Assembly: GCA_019359015.1 (NCBI GenBank)
Contig: JAHHID010000072.1
Location: forward strand, 1 to 38,279
Length of the DNA: 38,279 nucleotides
Source of the DNA: Spirirestis rafaelensis WJT71-NPBG6
GTDB lineage: Bacteria > Cyanobacteriota > Cyanobacteriia > Cyanobacteriales > Nostocaceae
Reading direction: 5' to 3'
The number at the start of each line of letters is the position of its first letter. Within the stretch, counting starts at the first letter, position 1. The notes beneath the pieces are model-generated. The model worked only from the letters and a program-made list of their open reading frames with translations, was not told where the DNA came from and did no database searches. Positions 2,759 through 35,598 of this stretch are shown here, piece by piece. The translations under genes were made by a program, and so were the position numbers.

Positions 2759-3208
2759 GCGCAATAAGTATTTTTATGTATATTTACTTAATATTGTTTA
2801 AAAAATCTTTTAAATTAACTTCTCTTGAGAAATAAATACTTAAGAGTAAACTGCAATTTGGGCAAAATTTACCTGGAAATTCCCTTATCTCCACTATTTT
2901 AAAATGCTCACTTTTAGATATATTTGGGCAATTTTGTCAATTTTTTCGAGTTTTCGTTAGATTCAATAATATTTTTTCAAAAAAATATTTTAAGTAAGTA
3001 ATAGAGCAAAAATATACATATATAACTTATGGCTGATGTCAAAAGTAGGATTTTTACAATATTTATTAAGTATTAAGAATAATTAAAGTTGAAGGAGTCA
3101 CGTACTGGGGATCGCTTTTTATTTACACATAGCAAATAAAAATTTAGTTATTTACCGAAAAAATTAATCAGAGTATTGAAGATAATTAAACAACAGGAAT
3201 CAATCAAA

Positions 3209-3475
3209 ATGCAAGGGAATTTACTGAGACAAATAGAAACAAGTTTGAGAATTGCTACTACTGTAGTATTTTGTATAGGCTCTGCCTTGATAATGCCTAA
3301 AATTGCCGAGGCAACAGGAGTTTTGAGCAGCTTGGCTGCTGATAGTATTAGGGTGCAGAAAAGCAATTTGGAGAGATTAAATAGTACAAATTTAAACTCT
3401 CAATTAAGTAGCGATACTTACGAACCTCCAAATAATGGTAGTCCTGATAGTCAACATGGTACTGGCACACGTTAA
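3209..3475 (+). CDS. Small exported or membrane-anchored protein with C-terminal PPxxGxPxxxxGxGTR motif
   Basis: I do not recognise this 88-residue protein as a named gene. The ATG at 3209 is preferred over the TTG at 3176 because an AGGA box lies about ten bases upstream. Residues about 14-34 are hydrophobic and end near 'AEA', like a signal peptide or anchor. The last 17 residues contain PP..G.P....G.GTR, which from memory resembles the N-terminal motif of secreted cyanobacterial DUF928-type proteins, but here it stands alone at the C terminus. It is monocistronic, followed by the convergent nadB. The function is unknown; a secreted peptide is one possibility. Confidence 0.6.
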   Translation: MQGNLLRQIETSLRIATTVVFCIGSALIMPKIAEATGVLSSLAADSIRVQKSNLERLNSTNLNSQLSSDTYEPPNNGSPDSQHGTGTR

Positions 3476-21100: not shown

Positions 21101-22558
21101 TTAAGTTTCATTAACTTGGTAAATTTGATGCCCTCTAATTTCTACTTCGTGTGCGGCAAGGCATTTTTCCCAACCTTTACGGGTACCGATGTCGCTTTTG
21201 CCTTTGAGCAATCCTAATTCTTGTTCTTGTTGAGTGAGTTTAGCAAATTCTGCGAACATAGGATAGTTAGAATTAACAAACGTTTCTTTGCGGTGGAGAA
21301 TCGGCGGATTTACTCTACTTTGATAGTCTCGGTGGGTTATCTTTAAAGTTTTAAAGTCAATAATTATACTGGCTTGTAACGCTGGATGGGGGTCTGTGTC
21401 GAATTCTGGGTAAAACAGGTAGCAAATTTGCTGTTTATCTGTGCAGTATTTTATCAATGTGGCTTGATCTACACGTCCGACAGTACGACTAGCGCAGCCT
21501 TCGTAAATTCTAAGTATCGGATCGAGTGCGGAAAGTGCAGAAACGTGAACGTAAAGAGCGCTGCGAGTGTGTTTACCGATTTTGCTTTTTTCGCAAGCTG
21601 TTTGAATAACTTCTGGTTGACCTAAGCTGAAAAGCTTGCTGTCAGCGACTTGACATGCTTCTTCGTAGCTACCGAAAAAGGCTTTGATGTCGTGGCGCAT
21701 TTCTGGCGCTAGCTTAGAGAAAGATGGGCGTTGATCGAAATGGGTCAAAGCAAGATAAACTTGGATATCAAGAGAACGACGATAGGCGATCGCATCCCAT
21801 TCGGCTTCGTCAGTTGCTTGTAAAATCACCGCAAAGGCACGGCGAAAGTTACCAAACTCAATCAGTAATTCTTGTTCATTTTCTAATTCACCTTTCATCG
21901 GCAGTCTGCCACGGCGCGTATAAAATTGCATCAGTGGTTGCAACTTTTCTTTATAGTCCTCAAAGCGCTTTGTCGGGATGCGGACTCTCGGCGTAGAATT
22001 GCTAGAAAAAAAGCGGATGGCTTTGTAGCTTTCTTTTTGAGCCTCATCTCTAAAAACAAAATAGATGCCTAGCGCCACGGGTACTGCATCTGTATTTAGC
22101 GCTTCATCAATGTAACTTTTGAGTTCTTGTTGGTCGTAATATTTCTGAAATGTATTGCGACGAGTGACGATACCATCACCGTAAGCTAATTGAGCGTTGC
22201 TGGGAGCATTAATCAGCACTTGAGCCGCGACAATTAAAACTTGCCGGGTAAGTTCCCAGGCTTTGCAAAGTGCCTCACGCCGTTCCTCTGGCTTTTCAAT
22301 CACGTTGAGGACGTAGCCCAAGTTGACGACATCTGCGGCGGTGAGTGGTATGTCTGGATAATAGTAAGGGTCCCAGCCTGCACTGGTGTAGCCTAAATTT
22401 GCTACTCGCTGTACATCCCCACCATGTCCGCAACCGTAGTCAAAAAAGGTGGTATCATTAGTTAAAATTGCCCATTCTATTGCCAATCGCACAGGGCGAG
22501 ATATGTCAGTGCGAAAAATCGCGGCTCTGTGACGTTCGATTTCTAAGTAATGTGACAT
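21101..22558 (-). CDS. DNA phosphorothioation-associated putative methyltransferase (TIGR04096 type)
   Basis: This 485-residue protein starts 'MSHYLEIERHRAAIFRTDISRPVRLAIEW', a signature of the Dnd-linked methyltransferase family. A SAM-binding motif 'FFDYGCGHGGDV' lies at about residue 40, followed by 'NLGYVLNVIEKPEERREAL'. The long C-terminal part shows 'ALGIYFVFRDEAQ' and a middle helical region. The target is presumed to be DNA at or near phosphorothioate sites, but this is inference. The frame remains open to 22684, yet that extension is a translated interspersed repeat, so ATG 22558 is chosen (22579 possible). It is the last gene of the dndCDE block. Confidence 0.88.
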   Translation of the reverse strand: MSHYLEIERHRAAIFRTDISRPVRLAIEWAILTNDTTFFDYGCGHGGDVQRVANLGYTSAGWDPYYYPDIPLTAADVVNLGYVLNVIEKPEERREALCKAWELTRQVLIVAAQVLINAPSNAQLAYGDGIVTRRNTFQKYYDQQELKSYIDEALNTDAVPVALGIYFVFRDEAQKESYKAIRFFSSNSTPRVRIPTKRFEDYKEKLQPLMQFYTRRGRLPMKGELENEQELLIEFGNFRRAFAVILQATDEAEWDAIAYRRSLDIQVYLALTHFDQRPSFSKLAPEMRHDIKAFFGSYEEACQVADSKLFSLGQPEVIQTACEKSKIGKHTRSALYVHVSALSALDPILRIYEGCASRTVGRVDQATLIKYCTDKQQICYLFYPEFDTDPHPALQASIIIDFKTLKITHRDYQSRVNPPILHRKETFVNSNYPMFAEFAKLTQQEQELGLLKGKSDIGTRKGWEKCLAAHEVEIRGHQIYQVNET

Positions 22559-22598
22559 AAAGATATTAAAAATAACCATAGATGCACACAGAAAGTAG

Positions 22599-22735
22599 GG
22601 AATTGGGCATGGGGCATTGGGCATTGGGGAGCCAGTGCCGTGCGGAGGTCTCCTCCGTTGAGGCATAGCCGCGTCATTGGGCATTGGGCATTGGTTTTCC
22701 CTTTCCCCTTTCCCCTTTTCCCCTCTTTAAAATCC
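22599..22735. repeat. Interspersed repeat copy (left, inverted relative to 23162-23303)
   Basis: Contains 'GGGCATTGGG' units, 'GAGCCAGTGCCGTGCGG', 'TTGAGGCATAGCCGCGTC' and a 'CCCTTTCC' run. The reverse complement of 23162-23303 shows the same blocks in the same order. Confidence 0.8.
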
Positions 22736-22766: not shown

Positions 22767-23156
22767 TTATATCTTTTTAATAGCCACTTCTATCAAATCT
22801 TCAATCTTCTTGATATTTGAATCGCCTGCTAAGTAACCGATACCACGATGTAAATGCAGGCGAAATTGTGTTACGAGGGTTTCTTTGTCAGTACCTAAAT
22901 TATCGTTGTAGCAACGTTGTTTGAGGGCAAGTAGGAGAATATCAGACATTTCACCGCCAAAGACGCGCCAAGTCATTTCCACGTTGCTATCTTGGGGAAT
23001 TGGTACGGGGGAGGGGATGGTTGGTTCAGCGAGGGAACGACAAAACGCCCAACGGCATAAGATATTCCATTGGTCGATTTTGGTGTTGCGTCTTAGTTTG
23101 AGAAGTTGATCTTTTGCGGTTTGGGAAAGTTTAATGCGTTCAATTGATGTTTCCAT
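22767..23156 (-). CDS. dndE: DNA phosphorothioation protein DndE
   Basis: This 129-residue protein matches DndE in size and in motifs 'KLSQTAKDQLLKLRR', 'WNILCRWAFCRSLAEP', 'EMTWRVFGGE' and a C-terminal 'HLHRGIGYLAGD'. Structural work on the family reports binding to nicked duplex DNA; together with DndC and DndD it is needed for sulfur incorporation into the DNA backbone. It lies downstream of dndD on the same strand but is separated by about 147 bp of repeats, and is flanked by inverted copies of the same repeat on both sides. Confidence 0.93.
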   Translation of the reverse strand: METSIERIKLSQTAKDQLLKLRRNTKIDQWNILCRWAFCRSLAEPTIPSPVPIPQDSNVEMTWRVFGGEMSDILLLALKQRCYNDNLGTDKETLVTQFRLHLHRGIGYLAGDSNIKKIEDLIEVAIKKI

Positions 23157-23303: not shown

Positions 23304-25292
23304 TTACCAAAAATAGCCTGGTTGTATGGTTGTTTGCCGGGTGGAGGAGTCGTATTTGAGGAGATATTCGCGGGCGATCGCTTCATTTTTATGAAGTGTT
23401 TCAACTTCGTTTTTGCCTATCTCAGTATCTGTAGATAACAAAATTACTTGATGGCTGGCTGAGGGAAAGTAGCGTTCTACTAAGTTACCACGGTGAGAAG
23501 AATCAAGTCTGCCTAGCGGTGTATCGATGGCGACTGGTAAGCGTCGTCCGGAGACTCGCGCTAAACCCCAAAGAAAGGCGATCGCTAAAAGTTGTTTTTC
23601 CCCTGCGGAAAGACGATGTTTGGGAACTGGTTTCCCTTGCAAGTCATAAAGGGAAAGGCTGAAGGTGTTGGTATCGATAGCGACGCGATGCACTAAATCA
23701 GATTTGTGCAGAAGATAGCGGAAGCATTCTGTAACTTCAACTTCTAGTTTATTTAGCTTTCGCAAAGTTAATTTTTCGCGGAAAAGCTTGAGTGTATCTT
23801 GAACTTTAGCGGCTGAAGAAATAATATGCTCTTTATTTTGGCGATCGATATTTTTTTCAGTATAGTTTTCTAGCTCTTTTTTAGTATTGCGAATATTTAT
23901 ATCTAACTCATCCAAACGGCGTTTTGTTATTTCCCAACTTGCTTTAGCTTCAGCAACTTGCTGTTGTGCTTGTTGCAAATCATCAACTAATCTTTGATAA
24001 TCTTCTGGTGATGCAGCAGTTTGAATTTGTCTTTCTAAAGTGATAATTTCTTCTTCTTTTGTTTGTAATATATTGAGTTTATCTTCGGCATTATTTTTTG
24101 CTGATCGCAAGTGATGATGAATAATATTATCTAACTGATGCAGTGTTTCGCTATCAGTTAATAACCAAGGCTGTTCTGTTGTAGCTTTTTCTAAAGATTG
24201 ATTTTCTTTATTGATGAAATGTTTAATTTTATCAACTTTTTCATCACCCAAAGCCAAATTGTGAATCAAATCGAGTAATCGTTTATCTCGCGCAACTAAT
24301 AAATCATGTGCTAATGCAGCTTGTTGAATATGAAGTTCTTTTTCTCCTTGGGTGTAAATCTGATTCAGCAAAGGTTCAATTAAAGCCAAAGGTAAAATAT
24401 TAGCCGCTAATTCACACATTAATTGACGTGTTTTCTCGGCTGACGCAGTTATTTCTGACTTCTGCTTCTCTAACTGACTGCGTTCTCCAGCGATTTTACC
24501 ACCCTCAGAAATAAATTTATCAACAACTTCTTGCTGACGAAGTTCAACTTCTTTTAACTTTTCTTGTAAAGATGCTAAATTTAGCGTTTCTGCATCGTAC
24601 TCTTTTTGTTGCTCTTTTAGCCTATTTTCAATTTCCTCTAAATTTGCTAAATATTTAATATCAGCAATTTCTTTGCGTTTGCGATTGACTAATATTTCCA
24701 AATCAACTGCTAGACGTTCAGCTAGTTCTAGTCCTAAAAGTCCGCTAATTGCATCAACTACAATCGGTGGAGGTATTTCTTGTTCTGCGAGTTCCTTAAC
24801 TTGTTCTCCGTCAAAGAGAAATAAGTTAGAAATTCCTAAAGGTAATAGATTTTCGATGTAATCATCCCAAGTGTTAGCTAAAGCATCAATACCCCATGTT
24901 TTATCATCTTCACCAAAAACTCCTAAATCATCTTTACCATCTTTAAGATTTCTTCCCCAAGTCCGCACAACGCGGTATTTTACTGGTTTGTCATTTTCAA
25001 TATGTTCAAAAACTAATTCAATCCGGGTTTTATCAACTGGATCGCTGTGACTGTTAACGCATTGAGTAAGAAAATCACTATAGCTAAGATTACCACGAGT
25101 AGAACATTGAGCGCGATGTCCATAAAGTGCGAGACGAATCGCATCCATTAGCGTTGTTTTTCCTCCACCATTCATCCCACCTAAAAGGATGATGGGACGA
25201 GAATTTTCTTCATAAATTTCTGGATTAAGATTGATGACTTGTTTTCCACAGTAGGGACCAAAGTTTTGTAATACGAGTTCAATAAATTTCAT
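23304..25292 (-). CDS. dndD: DNA phosphorothioation ATPase DndD
   Basis: This 662-residue SMC/Rad50-like ATPase is the energy-coupling part of DNA sulfur modification. It has a Walker A motif at residues about 39-47 ('GMNGGGKTT') and the family-typical 'FLFDGEQVKELA' near 170. Long coiled coils run from about 200 to 530, the ABC signature 'LSAGEKQ' is at 561, and Walker B/D-loop 'PVAIDTPLGRLDS' is near 586. The ATG at 25292 is chosen because the conserved 'MKFIELVLQNFGPY' begins there; the frame extends 11 codons further. It lies between dndC and dndE on the same strand. Confidence 0.94.
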   Translation of the reverse strand: MKFIELVLQNFGPYCGKQVINLNPEIYEENSRPIILLGGMNGGGKTTLMDAIRLALYGHRAQCSTRGNLSYSDFLTQCVNSHSDPVDKTRIELVFEHIENDKPVKYRVVRTWGRNLKDGKDDLGVFGEDDKTWGIDALANTWDDYIENLLPLGISNLFLFDGEQVKELAEQEIPPPIVVDAISGLLGLELAERLAVDLEILVNRKRKEIADIKYLANLEEIENRLKEQQKEYDAETLNLASLQEKLKEVELRQQEVVDKFISEGGKIAGERSQLEKQKSEITASAEKTRQLMCELAANILPLALIEPLLNQIYTQGEKELHIQQAALAHDLLVARDKRLLDLIHNLALGDEKVDKIKHFINKENQSLEKATTEQPWLLTDSETLHQLDNIIHHHLRSAKNNAEDKLNILQTKEEEIITLERQIQTAASPEDYQRLVDDLQQAQQQVAEAKASWEITKRRLDELDINIRNTKKELENYTEKNIDRQNKEHIISSAAKVQDTLKLFREKLTLRKLNKLEVEVTECFRYLLHKSDLVHRVAIDTNTFSLSLYDLQGKPVPKHRLSAGEKQLLAIAFLWGLARVSGRRLPVAIDTPLGRLDSSHRGNLVERYFPSASHQVILLSTDTEIGKNEVETLHKNEAIAREYLLKYDSSTRQTTIQPGYFW

Positions 25293-25325
25293 TTTCCGAA
25301 ATATTTTATGAAAAATTCTATCCAC

Positions 25326-25456: not shown

Positions 25457-27085
25457 CTATTCGCCCTTTTTCTTTTGAAATTTCATACTCCCCCAAGTTT
25501 TCGGTTGTGCTTCATCTGTTAACGCAACATCTCCCAAAGTTAGCTGCTTCACCTTTTCTACATCACCGGAACCGGCTGCGGTTTTTAAATCTCGTTTGTA
25601 ATGAGCATTTTTTATCGCTTGCTCTGGAGAACGTGAACTAGTGTCAAAACATTTCTCTAATTTGTCGTATATTCCCACGCGACGCGACATTTTGCGATAT
25701 TGACGTTCTGTGTCTAACAGCTTCGCCATTAATTCTAAATGCATTCCATCACCTTCACAAATTTCTTCTAACACAGCCCATTCATCGCTACCGAGTAGAC
25801 TATAGCCAGCACTAGGACGGGGGTCAGAGAAAACTTCACCAGTCACTTCCATATAAATGCGGGGTAAACTATCATCAAATTCGTGCTTTTCTTCTAGCCA
25901 GATACGACGAATTTCGCTTAGTTCTTCTGGGGTAATTAGGGTAATGTCACGCATATTTTCTGGTGCTGTGCGACGCATTTGTGTTTGCGCTTCTAACACT
26001 CGTCTTACCCAATGTTCCCGCCAATATTTGGTATAGGGACCGGGTATTGGTTCAACTGATATTTCACCATCTACATTGCGGTCAAAAAGTTGCACGTTAC
26101 CCCAAATTCGTCGAAAATCTCTTTTGTCCCGATCATCTTTAATATCTAATTCATTGCGGATATCAAGTAGAGGCTGCATCCATTCTTTTTCTTCATCATT
26201 CTGGATCATCGCCTCCATTGATTTATCTTTATTAACCATTGTGCAAACCCAGCAACCAAAGCGCGAATCTCCACAACTGGGGGTAGATGTATCTACTACA
26301 AGAGGGCATTCGTTGTCTGCTGTCGCACCTCGATACATACTGAATAAATCTTTATTGCTATGTTCCCAAGGATTTTGCCACTGATTTAGGTATAGCCAAA
26401 CTTCATCAGTACGCCAGTCTTCAATAGGACTGTAAATCAGAGAATTGGGCAAACTAGGACTATTATAAAGTAGAGATTGAGGTGAACTTGAATTAGGATT
26501 GAGACGATCCTGTAAGCTACCTAGTTGATGTTTTTCCATTGAAGCGGCACGTTTAATGCTTTCAGCCTTGCGTGTACCCAAAAGAAGAATTACTTCTCCG
26601 TTAACTCTAACTACATCACGGACAAAGTGGTTAGAAGGGTAAATTTTGAGACGTTCAGTACACCATCTAAATCTATGACGCGGTGCTGGGTAGCCTTTAC
26701 CAATCAGGTTTACCCAAAAAGTGTCTTTGATATCGGGATAGAGTAGATGAGGTTCTACAGGCATTCCTTGCTCTTGAGCTGCCACCTTCATCCGCTCTAA
26801 CGACTTGCGTACCCAATTTGAGACTATAGGATTTTCTACCAGCGTATCTGTTGTAATAACATGAATGGTCTTAATTCGTTTGGAGGGTGGGAGTTTAGCA
26901 ATGGCATTCCAGATCAGCTGCAAAGTTGCTGTCGAATCTTTACCACCGGAGTATCCAACTACCCAAGGAATGGCATCCAGAGTGTATAATTCTTGTATTT
27001 CTTGTGTCAGGGCTTCGATATAATCTACTAACTCTGCAACTGTACGCACTTGCTGAGTTTTCTTTTCTGGTTGTGCTGTAGCCAT
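25457..27085 (-). CDS. dndC: DNA phosphorothioation sulfurtransferase DndC
   Basis: This 542-residue protein belongs to the PAPS-reductase-like ATP pyrophosphatases. The PP-loop 'YSGGKDSTATL' is intact at residues 45-55. Cysteines expected to hold an iron-sulfur cluster are present in 'RWCTERLK' and in the 'CGDSRFGCWVCTMV' cluster in the middle of the protein. DndC activates DNA and transfers sulfur supplied by a cysteine desulfurase. A strong GGAAGGAGAA box precedes the ATG at 27085. It heads a minus-strand unit dndC-dndD-dndE-methyltransferase and is divergent from dndB. Confidence 0.95.
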   Translation of the reverse strand: MATAQPEKKTQQVRTVAELVDYIEALTQEIQELYTLDAIPWVVGYSGGKDSTATLQLIWNAIAKLPPSKRIKTIHVITTDTLVENPIVSNWVRKSLERMKVAAQEQGMPVEPHLLYPDIKDTFWVNLIGKGYPAPRHRFRWCTERLKIYPSNHFVRDVVRVNGEVILLLGTRKAESIKRAASMEKHQLGSLQDRLNPNSSSPQSLLYNSPSLPNSLIYSPIEDWRTDEVWLYLNQWQNPWEHSNKDLFSMYRGATADNECPLVVDTSTPSCGDSRFGCWVCTMVNKDKSMEAMIQNDEEKEWMQPLLDIRNELDIKDDRDKRDFRRIWGNVQLFDRNVDGEISVEPIPGPYTKYWREHWVRRVLEAQTQMRRTAPENMRDITLITPEELSEIRRIWLEEKHEFDDSLPRIYMEVTGEVFSDPRPSAGYSLLGSDEWAVLEEICEGDGMHLELMAKLLDTERQYRKMSRRVGIYDKLEKCFDTSSRSPEQAIKNAHYKRDLKTAAGSGDVEKVKQLTLGDVALTDEAQPKTWGSMKFQKKKGE

Positions 27086-27254: not shown

Positions 27255-28829
27255 ATGACTGACATTGCAAGCGAGTATCTATCAAGGGAAAACAAGGATA
27301 AACAGGTACTGGCTTTATTGCTAGAGAAATTCCTGGGGAAAAAGGATCAAATCCTCGTCCAGAAAACAGAGATGGGTGGAACTGAAGCTTATGTGGGTTC
27401 TGTCACATTAGAGTGGTTTGCTGGTCGGGTTCGTTTTGCGTCTTCTTTACCGTTGCTTCAGAAAAAGTATAATTCTGAAACCGATAATGTGGAGATTGAC
27501 GCGGATAGTATTGAAGAAATTCGCCAACGTCCTCTTGATTGGTCACGTCAACTACCCCTAGCGCAGTATCTAGCAGCAAGGACTAATCATAAGTTTCCCC
27601 CTGTTTTGGTCGTGATTAACCAACCTTGGGTGGACAATCCGAAAGCTGCTGAGTGGAATAAACAAGGAAGCGCGACAAAATCGACTATTGATTTTACCCC
27701 ATTAGATAAAGATGGCAAAGTCGGTTTACTCAACGTTTCTGAAGAGGATGTAACCATTTATGCACTAGATGGTCAGCATCGACTGATGGGGGTACAGGGG
27801 TTGATGGAGTTGATTAAAACTCGCAAACTCCAGCGTTACAAAAAAGATAAAACCGCTGATGATACTTTTATAACGTTATCTGACTTGATAGAACAGTATC
27901 ATGTAGACCCAGCTTATCTGCAAAACTTGCCCACAGAAAAGATTGGGATTGAATTTATTTGTGCAATCGCTGCTGGAGAAACTCGCGAACAAGCAAGACG
28001 ACGGGTGAGATCCATTTTTGTTCATGTTAACTTGATGGCTGCACCTTTAACAAAAGGTCAGTTGGCGCAGTTAAATGAGGATGACGGTTTTTCGATTGTT
28101 GCGAGAAAAATCGCTGTAACGCATTCACTTTTTGAACAAAAGCGCGATCGCAAACCTCGCGTTAATTGGGATAGTGCAACAGTGGCATCGAAATCAACAG
28201 TTTTAACGACGCTGCAAGCTCTACAAGATATGTCTGGGCGATATTTGGGGCAAAAGTTCCCTTTGTGGAAACCCTTGGATAAAGGTTTAATTCCCATGCG
28301 TCCAGAGGATGATGAACTTCAAGAGGGAATCAAAGAGTTTGAGAAGCTATTTGATTATTTAGCGAGTCTTCCCAGCTATCAGCTTCTAGAAGAAGAGGAT
28401 ACACCACCTTTGCGACGATTCAGCTTTGAGAAGGATGGGGGTGAAGGAAATATGCTTTTTCGTCCTGTGGGACAAGTAGCGATGGCGCAAGCTTTAGGAA
28501 TTTTGGTTTTTCGCAAAGGGTTATTACTTGAAGACATATTTAAGAAGCTTCGCAGGTTCGACCAAAAGGGAGGATTTAGTGGTATGGACTATCCGCAATC
28601 TCTCTGGTATGGGGTTTTGTATGACCCAAATAAAAAACGGGTGCAGGTTGCGGGAAGGGATTTGGCAGCAAAGTTATTAATATATATTTTAGGTGGAATC
28701 ACAGATCAGATGGAGCGTGCAGAACTTCGCAAAGCTTTAGCGAATGCGAGAACTGTGGAAAATAAAACTATCAGTTTTGATGGTAAGTTTGTTGAACCAA
28801 AGGAAGTAGGACTTCCACCTACTCTCTGA
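27255..28829 (+). CDS. dndB: DndB, DGQHR-domain protein of the phosphorothioation system
   Basis: This 524-residue protein carries the DGQHR motif at residues 172-176 ('YALDGQHRLMG'), defining the DndB family, followed by 'GETREQARRRVRSIFVHVN'. DndB is not essential for sulfur insertion; in characterised systems it lowers or tunes modification and represses transcription. Here it is transcribed away from dndC, so one intergenic region may control both units. No clear SD box precedes the ATG, which sits soon after the palindrome. It converges on the HNH gene with a 42-bp gap. Confidence 0.93.
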   Translation: MTDIASEYLSRENKDKQVLALLLEKFLGKKDQILVQKTEMGGTEAYVGSVTLEWFAGRVRFASSLPLLQKKYNSETDNVEIDADSIEEIRQRPLDWSRQLPLAQYLAARTNHKFPPVLVVINQPWVDNPKAAEWNKQGSATKSTIDFTPLDKDGKVGLLNVSEEDVTIYALDGQHRLMGVQGLMELIKTRKLQRYKKDKTADDTFITLSDLIEQYHVDPAYLQNLPTEKIGIEFICAIAAGETREQARRRVRSIFVHVNLMAAPLTKGQLAQLNEDDGFSIVARKIAVTHSLFEQKRDRKPRVNWDSATVASKSTVLTTLQALQDMSGRYLGQKFPLWKPLDKGLIPMRPEDDELQEGIKEFEKLFDYLASLPSYQLLEEEDTPPLRRFSFEKDGGEGNMLFRPVGQVAMAQALGILVFRKGLLLEDIFKKLRRFDQKGGFSGMDYPQSLWYGVLYDPNKKRVQVAGRDLAAKLLIYILGGITDQMERAELRKALANARTVENKTISFDGKFVEPKEVGLPPTL

Positions 28830-28871
28830 CTGCCAAACCTAAGATGAAGCTCTCTGGTGTAAACGTTTTTA

Positions 28872-30083
28872 TTATATACGATGTTTCTTTCTATGCCAGA
28901 TAAGTGCCTCAGGATTGGGGCGATATTTTTCTTTAATTGGTAAAAATATTTTCTGCCCCTGATAACTCTTCATTGGTATTATCTTCAAACTTTCTACTGT
29001 CGTCAGGCATTCCTCAGAAAACTTATTGGAGACTATAATTGAATAATTTTTATCATCTATGCCAAAACAGCCATTATCAAACGCCCAATGATGATTTTTA
29101 CAAAGTGATATTCCGTTACTTAATTGGTTATTGGAACTTACTGAAAGTGGCTTGATGTGAGCAGCATCGACAATATTTATGTAGCTTCGTATATCAACAG
29201 GTTTGATATTGAATTTGAGCCTGCAAACAGCGCATTGATATTCATATATGTGAATAATTGAGCGGCGAAAAAGTGAGTCTATTACGACATATTTTCTTTG
29301 ACTATATTTTTTTTCACTGTTTTTAGGCTCAGTCACCTCTTGATTTTGCTTTTGAGCATCTAAATCAAATGTATTTAAAGTATCATCTATTTGGGTATTG
29401 GTTTCATCAAAAAAAAAGGTATCCATAAGTACATTAACTAAGTAATTCCTCGATTGTGTATCCTGTAGAATCTCCCAAAGTTCATCATCAAATCTTCCAT
29501 ATTCTACTAGCTGTTTAAGTTTTGTCTCACTTTTGATTCTATTTCTACCCTCAGCATCTTTTATATCCAGGACTTACGCAACTGGCACATTTATCTGAAA
29601 ACTGTCACATAGAATTAATATGGCTCTAAGGTTTATAAATCAATGCTTACAAGCATTTACGGCAAATTGAAATATATGTGCCAGTTGACCTTATATTGTG
29701 ACGCTTGCGTAAGTCCTAATATCTTCAAATTTTGGTGATTCTTGTTTAAGTTCTAAATGCCAAAATTGCTCTCCTGTTTCTTTATATTTATCATTTATCA
29801 AATTCTCAAAAGGCTGATGAAAAGCAGATTTTTGACCTTTAAATTCTCCTACTAAAATTCTTTGGTATTTTTTAAATATCTGTTTTAGATCTTCATACTC
29901 AGGCTTATTAGTATGAATTTCATTTTTCAATATCTGTTGATTTTCAAGTAGCTCAATAATCGATAAAAGAAAGATAGGCTTATAAGGAGAATACTCCTTA
30001 TATTTATTGTAAGTAATTTGTCCTCTTTTGGCTTGACAAAATAAGGAAGCATAATATTCTAAATTTTTTGTGCTTTTACTCAT
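28872..30083 (-). pseudogene. HNH endonuclease of the Dnd island, split by a 151-bp MITE
   Basis: Two frames are fragments of one gene. The upstream part (29691-30083, 130 codons) ends 'ESPKFEDI' and then runs into the element and a stop. The downstream part resumes with 'KDAEGRNRI' before 29562 and contains the HNH core 'CAVCRLKF', 'VDAAHIKPLS' and 'NGISLCKNHHWAFDNG'. Removing 151 bp plus one 5-bp duplicate restores 352 codons (351 residues). The N-terminal layout ('SPYKPIFLLSIIELL', 'FHQPFENLI') recalls the sulfur-binding domains of ScoMcrA-type nucleases, which cut phosphorothioated DNA; that match is from memory. A separate 184-codon frame starts at ATG 29426 but has no SD box, so a functional split protein is uncertain. 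Confidence 0.88.
29568..29718. mobile_element. MITE with AGGACTTACGCA termini and 5-bp target duplication
   Basis: Terminal 12-bp repeats AGGACTTACGCA (29569-29580) and its perfect complement (29706-29717) are followed inward by a second pair, AACTGGCACAT and ATGTGCCAGTT. One extra base lies outside each terminus. The flanking 5-mer ATATC occurs at 29563-29567 and 29719-29723 and is single in the reconstructed gene, so it is a target duplication. No transposase is encoded, so it would need a full-length relative elsewhere. Confidence 0.92.
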
Positions 30084-30097
30084 TATTTATTAATTTT

Positions 30098-30577
30098 TTA
30101 TTGACCATTTAAAAACTTCCGGAGGTCAAATTCATCTTCTTTTAGTTCTTGATTATCTCTTTCTATGCTTAAAAGTAATAAAACTCGTTCTGAATAGTCT
30201 ACTGCGCCCCTAAATTCTACTTGTAATATTTCCAGCCCACCATTAACATATTCTTCAAATACGCGAAGACGTTCATTTTCATGTTCATACTCATCAGAAG
30301 AGATAATTTTAATATCTTTAGTTCCAGTAATTGCCAGTAACTTGATTACTAAATCGTATCCTCTGGAAACAAAAACTTCCTGTCCAATTGGCGATGGTTC
30401 TCTTTTAGATATTTCGCCTAAAGGAACTCGCTTATTATGCTTCGCACCCAAAGCAGCGGCAAAAACGATCGCATCAGCAAAAGTCTGAAAAGGACCCATT
30501 GCACCATCAGCTGAGATTAAAGCCTTCACCAATTCAGCTTTATCTTTAGCAACCCTGATTCTGCCAGTTTCAGCCAT
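30098..30577 (-). CDS. DNA phosphorothioation-associated protein 4
   Basis: This 159-residue protein is recognised as the Dnd-associated protein 4 family by 'RIRVAKDKAELVKALI', 'GPFQTFADAIVFAAALGAKHNKRVPL' and a C-terminal 'ERVLLLLSIERDNQE'. Its biochemical role is not known to me; the family was defined by linkage to dnd genes. It lies 14 bp upstream of the HNH gene on the same strand, so the two form a transcription unit and probably work together, perhaps as part of the restriction arm. Confidence 0.85.
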   Translation of the reverse strand: MAETGRIRVAKDKAELVKALISADGAMGPFQTFADAIVFAAALGAKHNKRVPLGEISKREPSPIGQEVFVSRGYDLVIKLLAITGTKDIKIISSDEYEHENERLRVFEEYVNGGLEILQVEFRGAVDYSERVLLLLSIERDNQELKEDEFDLRKFLNGQ

Positions 30578-31496: not shown

Positions 31497-33566
31497 TTAA
31501 CCCCCACGTTCAACCTCAATAATTTCCGTATACTCAAATTCATTCGGACTTTGCCTAACTAAGGGATATCTTTCCCCACTCAACTCTATATAATCTTGTT
31601 CGCAATCAGGTTTAGAAGAATAGTAAACCAACACATATTCCCTCCCTATTCTCTCACCCATTTCCTCCTCAACTTCACCTCGCCATTGCGTCTTAGTTAC
31701 CAACACAATCAACTGATTTGCTAATTGAGGAATAGTTTTCGCAATTTGTCGCCGATAGTTATTATCTAAACTACCAAAAGGCGAATCCATCACTATCGGA
31801 AACGTATTACTATCTGGCATCATCAACATTTTTCTTTCACTCCATTCCCTTACCTTGTCAATAATGCTGCCAATAAAAGATAAACTGAGAATTTGATTTT
31901 CGCCTGTGGAAGCTGCAACTGATGCTTCGATACCTGTTGTATTTTCCACTAGCGTCAATTCATATTTATCGCTAATTTTGGGAATGTAAGGTGTAAAAGA
32001 AATTTCACTGAATATTTCTTTTACTCGCTTTTCAAGTTGCAAGCGAAAGTGATTTTCTTGACGAAACTTAACTTCTGTTAATCGCTCAATTGCATCTTGG
32101 GTAGCAGCAATACGTCGTTGTGCTAGTCTTTGCTTATCCTCATTCAGCTTCTGTTTAGCAACTTGCTTATTCAAGCCTTCAATTTCCACTTTCAAATTAG
32201 CAATTTGCTGCTGATTTGCACCTTGCTCTAAGGTTAACTCTCTGATTTTGTCTTCAATTTCATCTAACCGCTTTTGTAAACTGCGAATTTCTTCACTTGG
32301 ATCTTTTCGCAAGCGTTCTTGAATGTTATCTAACTCTCCTTCAACTTGAGATATAGTTTGTCTTAGCTGATTAATTCTGGCTTGTTCTTTATCAACTTCT
32401 TCCCAAAACGCGACTGCTTGCTTGTCAATTTCATCTACTTGAGCACTCATGCGGAAAGCTGTTTCTTCCACCGCTGAAGAACCAGCTTTATCGAGCAACT
32501 TTCTCACATTCTCATGTCGATGAGTTCCGTCGTGTAATTCTGCACCACAAATACAGCGTTTAGAGTTGAGTAAGTCGGTAACAAACTCCCGCGAAATTCC
32601 CGAAGTTAATTGACCGCGCTGTTTTAAATCTTCGATAATAGTCCGAAACTGGCTTGTAGTTTCCGATAGCAACACCGTATAACCGCGTGTGGAAATAACT
32701 TTTTTCAGTGCTTCTCTGGTTTGTTTGAGATTTTCTTGGTTTGCTTTTTTCTGGTTTTCTAACTCTTGTCGTCTTTCTTGAATTTCTCTAGCAGCGCTGA
32801 GTTCTCGCAAACGGCTACTTGTCTCTTTTTTAAAGGTTTCTTGATACTCTAATTCTTGTTTTATTTCCGTTTGTCGCTTGGTGATGCGCTCAATTTCCCG
32901 CTCTAGCTTTTCTTGCTGTCTTAAAAGCTGTTTCGTTTCTGAATCACCGATGACTTTTAATTCATTATCTAAAGTTTTCTTTGCTTCCCCCAAATGCTTG
33001 ATTGAACGATTTATTACTTCCACCCCCAAAAGCATCTTTGTCGCTTCCGCAATTTCTGCTTTTTTATCGGAACGCACTATTTGCTCAATGCGTTCGCCAT
33101 CAAACAAGAAATATTGATGTAAACTACTTGGTAAAATCTGATTTATGATATCTTCTGGTTGTTGGAGTGGAAAATACCAGCGTCCATCATCACCAGATAC
33201 TTGCATTAATAATTTTGTCTTACCAACATCAATATCAGTTGCATTTTTATAAACCCGACACTGACGTTTGACGTTGTAGCGTTTGCTATCATGTTCCCAA
33301 CCTATTTCTACCCAACATTCTACAGCTTGCCCGATTTGAGCTTCAGCGATCGCTCGCTTATTAACTAACTGCTCAACTGAGGCAAATGCTGCACTAAATT
33401 TCTCATACAGCACCCATGTAAATCCATTCAGCAGACTGGTTTTTCCCGCGCCATTATTACCATGAATAATGGTCGTATTATGAGCATCACCAACTGCTAA
33501 GATGATTTCTGGTGTCTTGCCATAAAAAGAGCGAAAGTTACACAGCTTGATTGAAGTCAGCTTCAT
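31497..33566 (-). CDS. Second DndD-like SMC/Rad50-type ATPase
   Basis: This 689-residue protein has Walker A at 36-44 ('GNNGAGKTS'), the 'FLFDGERIEQIV' motif at 153-164 also seen in the island's DndD, and coiled coils at about 190-320 and 370-560. A small 'CIC' (Cys338, Cys340) hook-like element sits between the coils. An ABC signature ('ASTGENQILSLSF') and Walker B 'FPIVMDSPFGSLD' complete the ATPase. It differs clearly from dndD in length and hook. Its ATG overlaps the stop of a 57-residue ORF (ATGA), so translation is coupled. It probably drives a restriction or DNA-processing step, which is inference. Confidence 0.88.
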   Translation of the reverse strand: MKLTSIKLCNFRSFYGKTPEIILAVGDAHNTTIIHGNNGAGKTSLLNGFTWVLYEKFSAAFASVEQLVNKRAIAEAQIGQAVECWVEIGWEHDSKRYNVKRQCRVYKNATDIDVGKTKLLMQVSGDDGRWYFPLQQPEDIINQILPSSLHQYFLFDGERIEQIVRSDKKAEIAEATKMLLGVEVINRSIKHLGEAKKTLDNELKVIGDSETKQLLRQQEKLEREIERITKRQTEIKQELEYQETFKKETSSRLRELSAAREIQERRQELENQKKANQENLKQTREALKKVISTRGYTVLLSETTSQFRTIIEDLKQRGQLTSGISREFVTDLLNSKRCICGAELHDGTHRHENVRKLLDKAGSSAVEETAFRMSAQVDEIDKQAVAFWEEVDKEQARINQLRQTISQVEGELDNIQERLRKDPSEEIRSLQKRLDEIEDKIRELTLEQGANQQQIANLKVEIEGLNKQVAKQKLNEDKQRLAQRRIAATQDAIERLTEVKFRQENHFRLQLEKRVKEIFSEISFTPYIPKISDKYELTLVENTTGIEASVAASTGENQILSLSFIGSIIDKVREWSERKMLMMPDSNTFPIVMDSPFGSLDNNYRRQIAKTIPQLANQLIVLVTKTQWRGEVEEEMGERIGREYVLVYYSSKPDCEQDYIELSGERYPLVRQSPNEFEYTEIIEVERGG

Positions 33567-34125: not shown

Positions 34126-35598
34126 TTAAATATCCAATAAATCGTATCGCTTTTGTAAAGCGAGTAATTTCATCCTAGCTTCACCTGCATTGTCAGCTAA
34201 ATCGGCAAACTCAACAAAGCGACGCAATTCTTTTCTTAGCAAATTGCGCTCAACTTCTAAAGTGTTTCTGTCAAGTTCTGGTGGTAGCACAATCATGTCA
34301 AATATAGTAGCGCGTTCTTTACCTGGGTGAGGGCGCAAAACTCGCCCGCGTCGCTGAATAAATTGGCGGGGATTTCCTGAACTTGCTAAAATTACAGCAG
34401 TCTGAATTGCCGGAATATCAACTCCTTCATCTAAGCAGCGAATTGCTACTAAACCTTGCAATTCACCGCTTTCAAATTGATGGCGCAAAGTTTCTCTTTC
34501 TTGTAAAGGTGTTTTTGCGGTGTAGGTACTTACCCTATACCCCATTTCTCCTCCTAATATTTTGGCGACTGCTTTGAGTTGGTGTAGCGATGAACGTCCC
34601 TCTTCTTGTGCGCCATCACTACAATAAAAAAGGGTGTGAGTAGTTTCGCGACAAGTCGTCATTAGTTCGCGCAAAGCGTTTAATTTATTTTCTGCCGCGC
34701 CAATTAATCTCGCACGTTGCATTAACAAAGGTTTTAAATCTTGATTGTCTTCAAAGTCACCTACATCTAAATTTTCTCGTTCTCGATACAATAAAATTCG
34801 TCCAATTCTTTTAGTTAAATTTAAATAGGCAAGACTTTCTACTTCAGTTAACTCCACCAAAATGGGATGATACAGATAATGTACTAGCGCACCTTGATAA
34901 ATTGCATTCCTTAACGTGAATTCTGGCTGAAGAACCGCACCAAAGTAATTCAATAAAGATTGAGTGCCATCATCATCAAAATATCTTTCTGGTGTAGCAG
35001 AAAGAGCAAGTCGTAAACCCACGCGGCGTGGTAAACTTTCTTCCAACTTAGGTGCGCCTAAGTTATGTGCTTCGTCGCCAATAATCAAAGTCTTTTCGGG
35101 AAAGTACTTGAGTTGAGATTGAAAGCCATCGCCAATTAATGTGGAATTGGTAGTAACAATCGTGAGAAACGATTGCGAACCAGAACGCACGTTATAAAGT
35201 TGGGTAGAAAGTTGACTTTGCCACGTTCGTAAATCTTCAAAAGCTAAAATGGGCTGCAAGTTGAATTTTTCACATTCTCGCGCCCATTGGGTGACAAGAT
35301 GACGAAAGGGGCACACCACCAACAAAACTTGCAAGTTAATTTGTTTGTATAACTCGCAAGCGATCGCCAATGCTGTAATCGTTTTACCGCTACCAGTAGC
35401 CATCTTCAGCGTACCTCTGCCGTTGTTGGCAAACCAAGACTCAACAGCTTGCCGTTGATATTCCCGTAATTGCAACAGATAAGGCATTCTGGGGCATCCT
35501 GGTAGTTTATGAGTTTGATAATTGCCCTTACTTTCACCTGCAAATGGTTTTTTCAGCTTGAAAGTGGGCAATTTCTCAACTCGTCGCGTCAGGTACAT
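34126..35598 (-). CDS. DEAD/DEAH helicase, phosphorothioation-system restriction enzyme type (TIGR04095-like)
   Basis: This superfamily 2 helicase has Walker A 'ATGSGKT' (67-73), 'DEAH' (175-178), 'SAT' (200-202) and motif VI 'QRRGRVLRP' in the C-terminal half, ending soon after with a helical tail. No nuclease domain is visible. Size and position inside a dnd island match the family named DNA phosphorothioation system restriction enzyme, as I recall it. It could translocate on unmodified DNA and work with a separate nuclease. The frame starts at 35598, but the conserved 'LREYQRQAVE' begins after an alternative ATG at 35487. Confidence 0.85.
   Translation of the reverse strand: MYLTRRVEKLPTFKLKKPFAGESKGNYQTHKLPGCPRMPYLLQLREYQRQAVESWFANNGRGTLKMATGSGKTITALAIACELYKQINLQVLLVVCPFRHLVTQWARECEKFNLQPILAFEDLRTWQSQLSTQLYNVRSGSQSFLTIVTTNSTLIGDGFQSQLKYFPEKTLIIGDEAHNLGAPKLEESLPRRVGLRLALSATPERYFDDDGTQSLLNYFGAVLQPEFTLRNAIYQGALVHYLYHPILVELTEVESLAYLNLTKRIGRILLYRERENLDVGDFEDNQDLKPLLMQRARLIGAAENKLNALRELMTTCRETTHTLFYCSDGAQEEGRSSLHQLKAVAKILGGEMGYRVSTYTAKTPLQERETLRHQFESGELQGLVAIRCLDEGVDIPAIQTAVILASSGNPRQFIQRRGRVLRPHPGKERATIFDMIVLPPELDRNTLEVERNLLRKELRRFVEFADLADNAGEARMKLLALQKRYDLLDI

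Follow-up and report, generated by a model that had tools for sequence, protein, structure and literature searches.

How does a cell that makes phosphorothioated (PT) DNA tolerate, in the same island, a gene of an enzyme class that cuts it? In the window (the whole 38,279-nt stretch analysed, part of a draft genome assembly of 7.07 Mb in 143 contigs), this gene is split. Very probably, a recent insertion of an IS701-type MITE, mobilised in trans, broke an SBD-HNH gene, which combines a sulfur-binding domain (SBD) with an HNH nuclease domain, in a dnd/Pbe-type island.

The phosphorothioation island and its split gene

The following island genes were found around the split gene:

21101..22684, minus strand: DNA phosphorothioation-associated putative methyltransferase (TIGR04096, 706.5 bits, cut-off 150)
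22767..23156, minus strand: dndE (TIGR03184, 139.6 bits, cut-off 71.85)
23304..25325, minus strand: dndD (TIGR03185, 715.2 bits, cut-off 245.85)
25457..27085, minus strand: dndC (TIGR03183, 721.1 bits, cut-off 290.4)
27255..28829, plus strand: dndB-like gene, convergent downstream neighbour (TIGR03187 DGQHR domain, 192.9 bits; Pfam DndB, 45.1)
30098..30577, minus strand: DNA phosphorothioation-associated protein 4 (assoc4), upstream neighbour (TIGR04062, 190.6 bits, cut-off 74.25)
31497..33566, minus strand: PbeC / DndD-paralogue ATPase (PDLC02753, 1191.6 bits)
34126..35598, minus strand: DNA phosphorothioation system restriction enzyme (TIGR04095, 663.3 bits, cut-off 600)

The modification genes exceeded their family cut-offs, in line with the view of the first-pass annotation that modification had been kept. 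The dndB-like gene had no PADLOC match, and PbeB and PbeD were not identified in the window. The product of 34126-35598 is a second restriction arm, complete against TIGR04095. This PbeA-like protein aligned only to the C-terminal two thirds of the PADLOC PbeA models (from ~240). Judged by their sequences, dndB, dndC, dndD, dndE and the second restriction module (PbeC-like ATPase and TIGR04095 enzyme) look intact.

Relatives of the split gene numbered 183 in a scan of species genomes, and the best 80 were kept. The neighbourhood of these 80 loci was a conserved dnd one, which places the gene in a dnd island: dndC was nearby in 61, dndD in 55, dndB in 46, pbeC in 44, assoc4 in 41, dndE in 39 and pbeA in 31. 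These counts are not an unbiased rate, the loci being the best matches to a dnd-embedded query, with 103 relatives left unfetched, and the paralogues dndD and pbeC may have cross-matched.

The split gene itself has the following parts:

28872..29567, minus strand: 3' part of the gene (codons 121-351 and stop), with the SBD end, linker and HNH_2 domain
28872-29426, minus strand: 184-aa ORF, the longest ATG-started piece of the 3' part
29280..29282, minus strand: codon 216, Ile (Arg in 41/41 other aligned homologues)
29563..29567: target-site duplication copy 1, ATATC
29568..29718, plus strand: 151-bp MITE with IS701-type ends CAGGACTTACGCA...TGCGTAAGTCCTA and stop codons in each of the six frames
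29719..29723: target-site duplication copy 2, ATATC
29691-30083, minus strand: 130-aa ORF, today's reading of the 5' part, ending inside the MITE
29724..30083, minus strand: 5' part of the gene (codons 1-120), the N-terminal most of the SBD

The 151-bp element thus splits a single 351-codon gene on the minus strand, and both ORFs are pieces of it. Its inverted ends, 29569-29580 and 29706-29717, are exact over 12 bp. The outermost bases, C (29568) and A (29718), do not match each other but are common to 33 identical copies in the genome, which sets the element length at 151 bp. Excision of 156 bp (the element and one 5-bp ATATC; 52 codons) gave a continuous 351-aa frame whose only stop is at its end. 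The terminal repeats, the duplication and the joining of the fragments into a 351-residue frame were all recovered as they had first been described. Both ORFs had been called HNH fragments, which holds for the 184-aa ORF; the 130-aa ORF is instead mostly sulfur-binding domain, with its last 8 residues coded by the MITE. No Rfam family matched 28800-30200 at gathering thresholds.

Pfam, run on each piece separately, found HNH_2 only (C half, 43.6 bits, cut-off 21), and no SAD/SRA, DUF262 or DUF1524 domain. The Cys-Cys, His and Asn motif residues of the HNH domain are kept. The joined protein matched the SBDHga1 structure 8h0l over residues 15-178, spanning the insertion point (phmmer E 1e-4). 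A profile of 42 homologues, built from the 80 fetched loci, matched the 8h0l SBD with E 6.8e-29, and the HNH nucleases TagI and VcaM4I with 1.2e-7 and 0.0012. The predicted structure of the homologue from the MAG PMM_0069 (locus L102; mean pLDDT 81.6) led in a Foldseek search of the PDB to 8h0l (E 6.1e-6) and TagI (2.3e-4), and more weakly to VcaM4I (2.4e-3), the SprMcrA SBD (8.9e-3) and ScoMcrA (2.7e-2). On this model the insertion, at codons 120-122, falls inside the SBD between strand 108-112 and helix 134-140. The NCBIfam model for PT-dependent restriction enzymes, NF045808, covered residues 26-348, with a score (100.9 bits) beneath its curated cut-off of 180, so the protein was not filed under it.

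By these comparisons, the split gene encodes an SBD-HNH nuclease, of the class known for cutting phosphorothioated DNA. The SBD profile match and the dndC genes near 61 of the 80 relatives bear out the earlier proposal of a phosphorothioate-linked nuclease. No second SBD-HNH gene of this kind was found in the genome.

The inserted element and its possible movers

The element has the marks of a MITE: it is short, its six-frame stops leave no coding capacity, and it is present in many copies. Nezha, for example, is a MITE name. At least 40 matches were found in the genome (E ≤0.001), 33 of them 100% identical. The count is a lower bound, as 40 of 85 first-look candidates were scored and 40/40 matched. 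A 5-bp direct repeat flanked 36 of the 40 matches, as determined by script, and in a thirty-seventh (L037) the duplication was visible by eye once the last base was counted. The remaining three matches comprised one partial copy and two full copies that lack a duplication. The full-length ones, L010/L011 (C75:14487-14637) and L034 (C74:32300-32450), one 100% and the other 99% identical, are possibly products of recombination between copies.

The identical copies and clean duplications point to a recent spread, with the caveat that the assembly is a draft, and they sit well with the earlier view of a recent insertion, here with a perfect duplication. Together with relatives uninterrupted at the same sequence, the copy numbers and duplications put the insertion beyond chance, and the event is an ordinary MITE insertion by transposition. 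Matches to the element at E ≤1e-5 were present in 18 of 149 genomes (own included; 5 candidates scored per genome), the best beyond our own being 94%, in a congener. The plasmid collection held no match at E 1e-5. A search of the open-access literature with the end sequence returned an unrelated match only.

A candidate source of transposase was located on contig C82, where the genome search proposed in the first-pass annotation turned up a full-length IS with MITE-like ends (C82:25938-27239). It measures 1302 bp, has a TTCAG duplication, and encodes a 337-aa transposase scoring 423 bits against the NCBIfam IS701 model NF049921 (cut-off 250). It was the only full copy among 3 matches in the genome. 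The MITE matched its ends at 21/22 bases on one side and 19/22 on the other, and both elements have target duplications of 5 bp.

A second candidate emerged from the assembly itself. Twelve ends of 10 contigs (C5, C11, C23, C29, C36, C48, C57, C74, C123 and C140) stop ~125 bases inside an element. Their sequences are of two types, both opening with the same 20 bases, which are the 20-bp terminus of the MITE. They are likely the two termini of one multicopy element, probably an IS, that collapsed in the assembly and whose body is absent from the contigs. Among 99 genomes (8 candidates scored each), this element had only partial matches outside our own, limited to the inner part or the first 28-39 bases. 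The three inner-part loci inspected had no matching ends, and the search yielded no transposase for the element. The C82 IS agrees with the MITE at the ends alone, and the second multicopy element has the same 20-bp end; either could have supplied the transposase.

In the proposed course of events, an IS701-family transposase would have moved the non-autonomous MITE in trans during a recent burst. Landing in the SBD-HNH gene of the dnd/Pbe-type phosphorothioation island, the MITE would have given rise to the 5-bp target duplication, cut the sulfur-binding domain and parted it from the HNH domain. The activity of the SBD-HNH arm was then very likely lost, as far as sequence can tell, while modification and the second restriction module appear spared.

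The insertion had also been read as a reversible switch, by which some cells of the population would regain the nuclease through precise excision. The excised length of 156 bp is a multiple of three, and precise excision would therefore restore the frame. This is no sign of design, as it follows from the element length at any site. The single strand of element and duplicates, folded with DNA parameters, forms a long hairpin (z -4.05; 0/200 shuffles as stable) that could in principle favour slippage between the duplicates. However, no excised site was seen in this genome, and the empty sites belong to other species that are simply uninserted. Thirty of the 40 MITE loci were examined with 1.5-kb flanks and represented 28 distinct copies, 9 of which sit in a frame that stays open for 60 codons or more to either side. 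Other long frames were thus probably hit too, and the SBD-HNH gene was not specially targeted. The joined sequence, moreover, has Ile where all the aligned homologues have Arg. We consider a switch extremely unlikely, and the claim of reversibility was not borne out, excision being unseen.

Homologues and constraint on the coding sequence

The three closest homologues run contiguously across the insertion site. Those of Hassallia byssoidea VB512170 (L101) and PMM_0069 are both 87% identical over residues 1-351, and that of Nostoc carneum NIES-2107 (L103) is 64% identical over residues 8-351; none has the insert. Over 60 bases about the junction, a single one separates L102 from the joined sequence. 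Naturally split homologues, which would have spoken against a broken gene, were thus not what these relatives showed. The Hassallia homologue has its own in-frame premature stop, at codon 326 of 351.

Shorter or fragmentary homologues were present in five relatives, including L218 and L219 with two overlapping frames each and L221 at a contig edge. In two Nostoc homologues (L108:8001-8927 and L122:8001-8921), one in-frame stop each, at almost matching positions, interrupts the linker close behind the SBD, which would yield an SBD-only protein. An Okeania MAG homologue (L160:3760-4692) has a single in-frame stop within its HNH half. At L141, L159, L164 and L172 (from ~7950), an SBD-alone-like ORF of 175-194 codons between stops lies immediately upstream of a complete SBD-HNH gene.

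Breakage was flagged across the 80 loci as an in-frame stop, a frame change or coverage <75%, with genes near a locus edge dropped. The HNH gene was flagged in 4/79 (L101, L108, L122 and L160), the methyltransferase in 3/10, dndD in 2/47, dndC in 2/59 and dndB in 1/45; dndE (0/34), assoc4 (0/39), pbeC (0/31) and pbeA (0/25) were never flagged. Flagged stops may include terminal ones, and the sample of 80 loci favours intact HNH genes. Very short partial matches (1 dndD, 1 dndC, 2 pbeA) were kept apart from these totals. These counts do not show the HNH gene to be broken more often than the other genes of the island.

Lineage-specific changes were counted by codon, uncorrected, among three sequences (this genome, L101 and L102). 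The private changes of this genome in the joined gene numbered 22:4 (nonsynonymous:synonymous), against 85:193 in dndB, assoc4, dndC and dndD (Fisher p 8.6e-8). The corresponding ratios were 13:4 against 39:83 in Hassallia (p 7.7e-4) and 17:12 against 40:96 in the intact PMM_0069 (p 0.0046). Compared with PMM_0069, the SBD-HNH gene ratio differed at p 0.042 in this genome and at p 0.34 in Hassallia. By these sequence counts, the gene appears to evolve rapidly in each of the three lineages, with the greatest freedom in the two broken ones, although Hassallia taken singly is not distinguished from PMM_0069 by the test. A raised N:S ratio could reflect either relaxed constraint or diversifying selection. 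Sixty-eight alignment columns are conserved across 90% or more of the remaining 41 homologues. This genome deviates in 13 of them, 12 in common with Hassallia and PMM_0069; the one private change is the Ile at position 216.

The gene was probably already under weak constraint when the MITE hit. A stronger version, in which it had died beforehand and the MITE entered a pseudogene, is a serious possibility at somewhat under even chances. The N:S excess over the neighbouring genes, the Ile at an otherwise invariant Arg position and the separate premature stop in Hassallia fit with it. Against it, there is no further stop or frameshift across the 351 codons, and the HNH motif residues remain. The intact L102 gene likewise has a raised N:S ratio, from which this genome differs only at the p 0.042 level, and speed alone is no proof of death. 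The earlier statement that excision would restore the gene exactly therefore holds for the frame but not for the coding sequence, which has diverged and looks near-neutral. With this divergence and the Ile at 216, the rejoined protein may have its frame back and not necessarily be an active enzyme.

Another reading takes the gene as functional until the insertion, evolving fast by diversifying selection of the SBD. The dN/dS ratio was higher in the SBD half (1.53 for ours-Hassallia, 0.63 for ours-PMM, 0.72 for Hassallia-PMM) than in the remainder of the gene (0.55, 0.32 and 0.35, respectively), and 8 of the 22 changes unique to this genome cluster in codons 46-64. However, dN/dS exceeded 1 in only one of the three pairs, the sequences are few, and the dS of the gene was lower than in most neighbours, which hints at recombination. 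We regard diversifying selection as possible but rather unlikely.

The split might also have created something new, namely an SBD-less 184-aa HNH protein acting as a PT-independent nickase. According to PMC7461809, SprMcrA minus 87 SBD residues is a PT-independent nicking enzyme, and the HNH ORF here is open from an ATG at 29426. This ATG is, however, an internal Met codon, which L101 and L102 share, whereas L103 has Ile there. There is no promoter-like site inside the MITE, and the two promoter-like hits at 29501-29530 are no more than shuffled sequence gives (mean 2.0). The changed Arg position, moreover, falls in the HNH half. We consider a nickase very unlikely.

The genus pattern and comparison with known systems

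All five genomes labelled as this genus have dndC. In one of them, PMM_0069 (54% complete), the SBD-HNH gene is intact; in Hassallia byssoidea it carries the premature stop, here the MITE splits it, and the other two (G001 and G004) have no match. Other ORFs occupy the interval from dndB to assoc4 in these two, including a long one in each (L240:10852-12960 and L247:3488-5542; 703 and 685 codons between stops). The long ORF in G001 fits a di-haem cytochrome c peroxidase (L240, 80 bits to CCP_MauG). By place, length and similar first residues, we judged the two long ORFs to be the same gene. DNA comparison with both slots recovered the flanks and short weak matches, and no HNH remnant. A further assoc4 match in L247, a partial one, lies at 3137-3277.

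With five genomes the sample is too small for a test, and both replacements may be one event. Repeated loss of the SBD-HNH arm within the genus (by MITE, by premature stop and by two replacements) while the sulfur marking was kept is therefore a tentative and doubtful reading; the wider count over 80 loci showed no excess of breakage. The interest of the locus lies in this possible repeated loss beside kept modification. If it were true, it would suggest that the nuclease reading the mark is a conditional burden on mark-making cells, and that cyanobacterial dnd islands, described as having no restriction partner, once had one whose presence is tolerated only under some condition. The intact, stopped, transposon-split and replaced versions within one genus form a natural series for testing coexistence. 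In the open-access literature searched, neither the splitting by a transposon nor the genus pattern came up.

The association of HNH nucleases with Dnd is already known in outline. According to PMC10853773, HNH nucleases with an SBD-corresponding domain adjoin Dnd modification genes. In the form counted there (698 taxa), a SAD/SRA domain separates the two domains; Pfam found none in the two pieces of the split gene. In PMC7461809, a dnd cluster was nearby for <3.6% of the SBD-HNH set, whereas the split gene lies inside a dnd island; for such rare pairs, inactive enzymes or differing sequence targets are proposed there. PMC8569181 describes cyanobacteria as without dndFGH and PT restriction, and PMC7470945 describes SBD loops as determining specificity. 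DndI (IscS-DndBCDE-DndI), as given in PMC11662687, is likewise an HNH effector coupled to dnd modification, but it combines DUF262 and DUF1524 with ATPase, whereas the split gene combines SBD and HNH_2.

The MITE resembles IS701-family MITEs in sharing its ends and 5-bp duplication with a full IS701 in the same genome; the two were compared and matched at the ends only, which does not imply that the MITE interior derives from the IS. ScoMcrA, an SBD-HNH type with an added SRA, was a weaker structural match to the homologue of the split gene. The closest likeness in architecture is to the SBD-HNH enzymes of the SprMcrA and EcoWI types, which also have an N-terminal SBD and a C-terminal HNH domain; the gene described here differs in being split, in its position inside a dnd island and in its score beneath the NF045808 cut-off.
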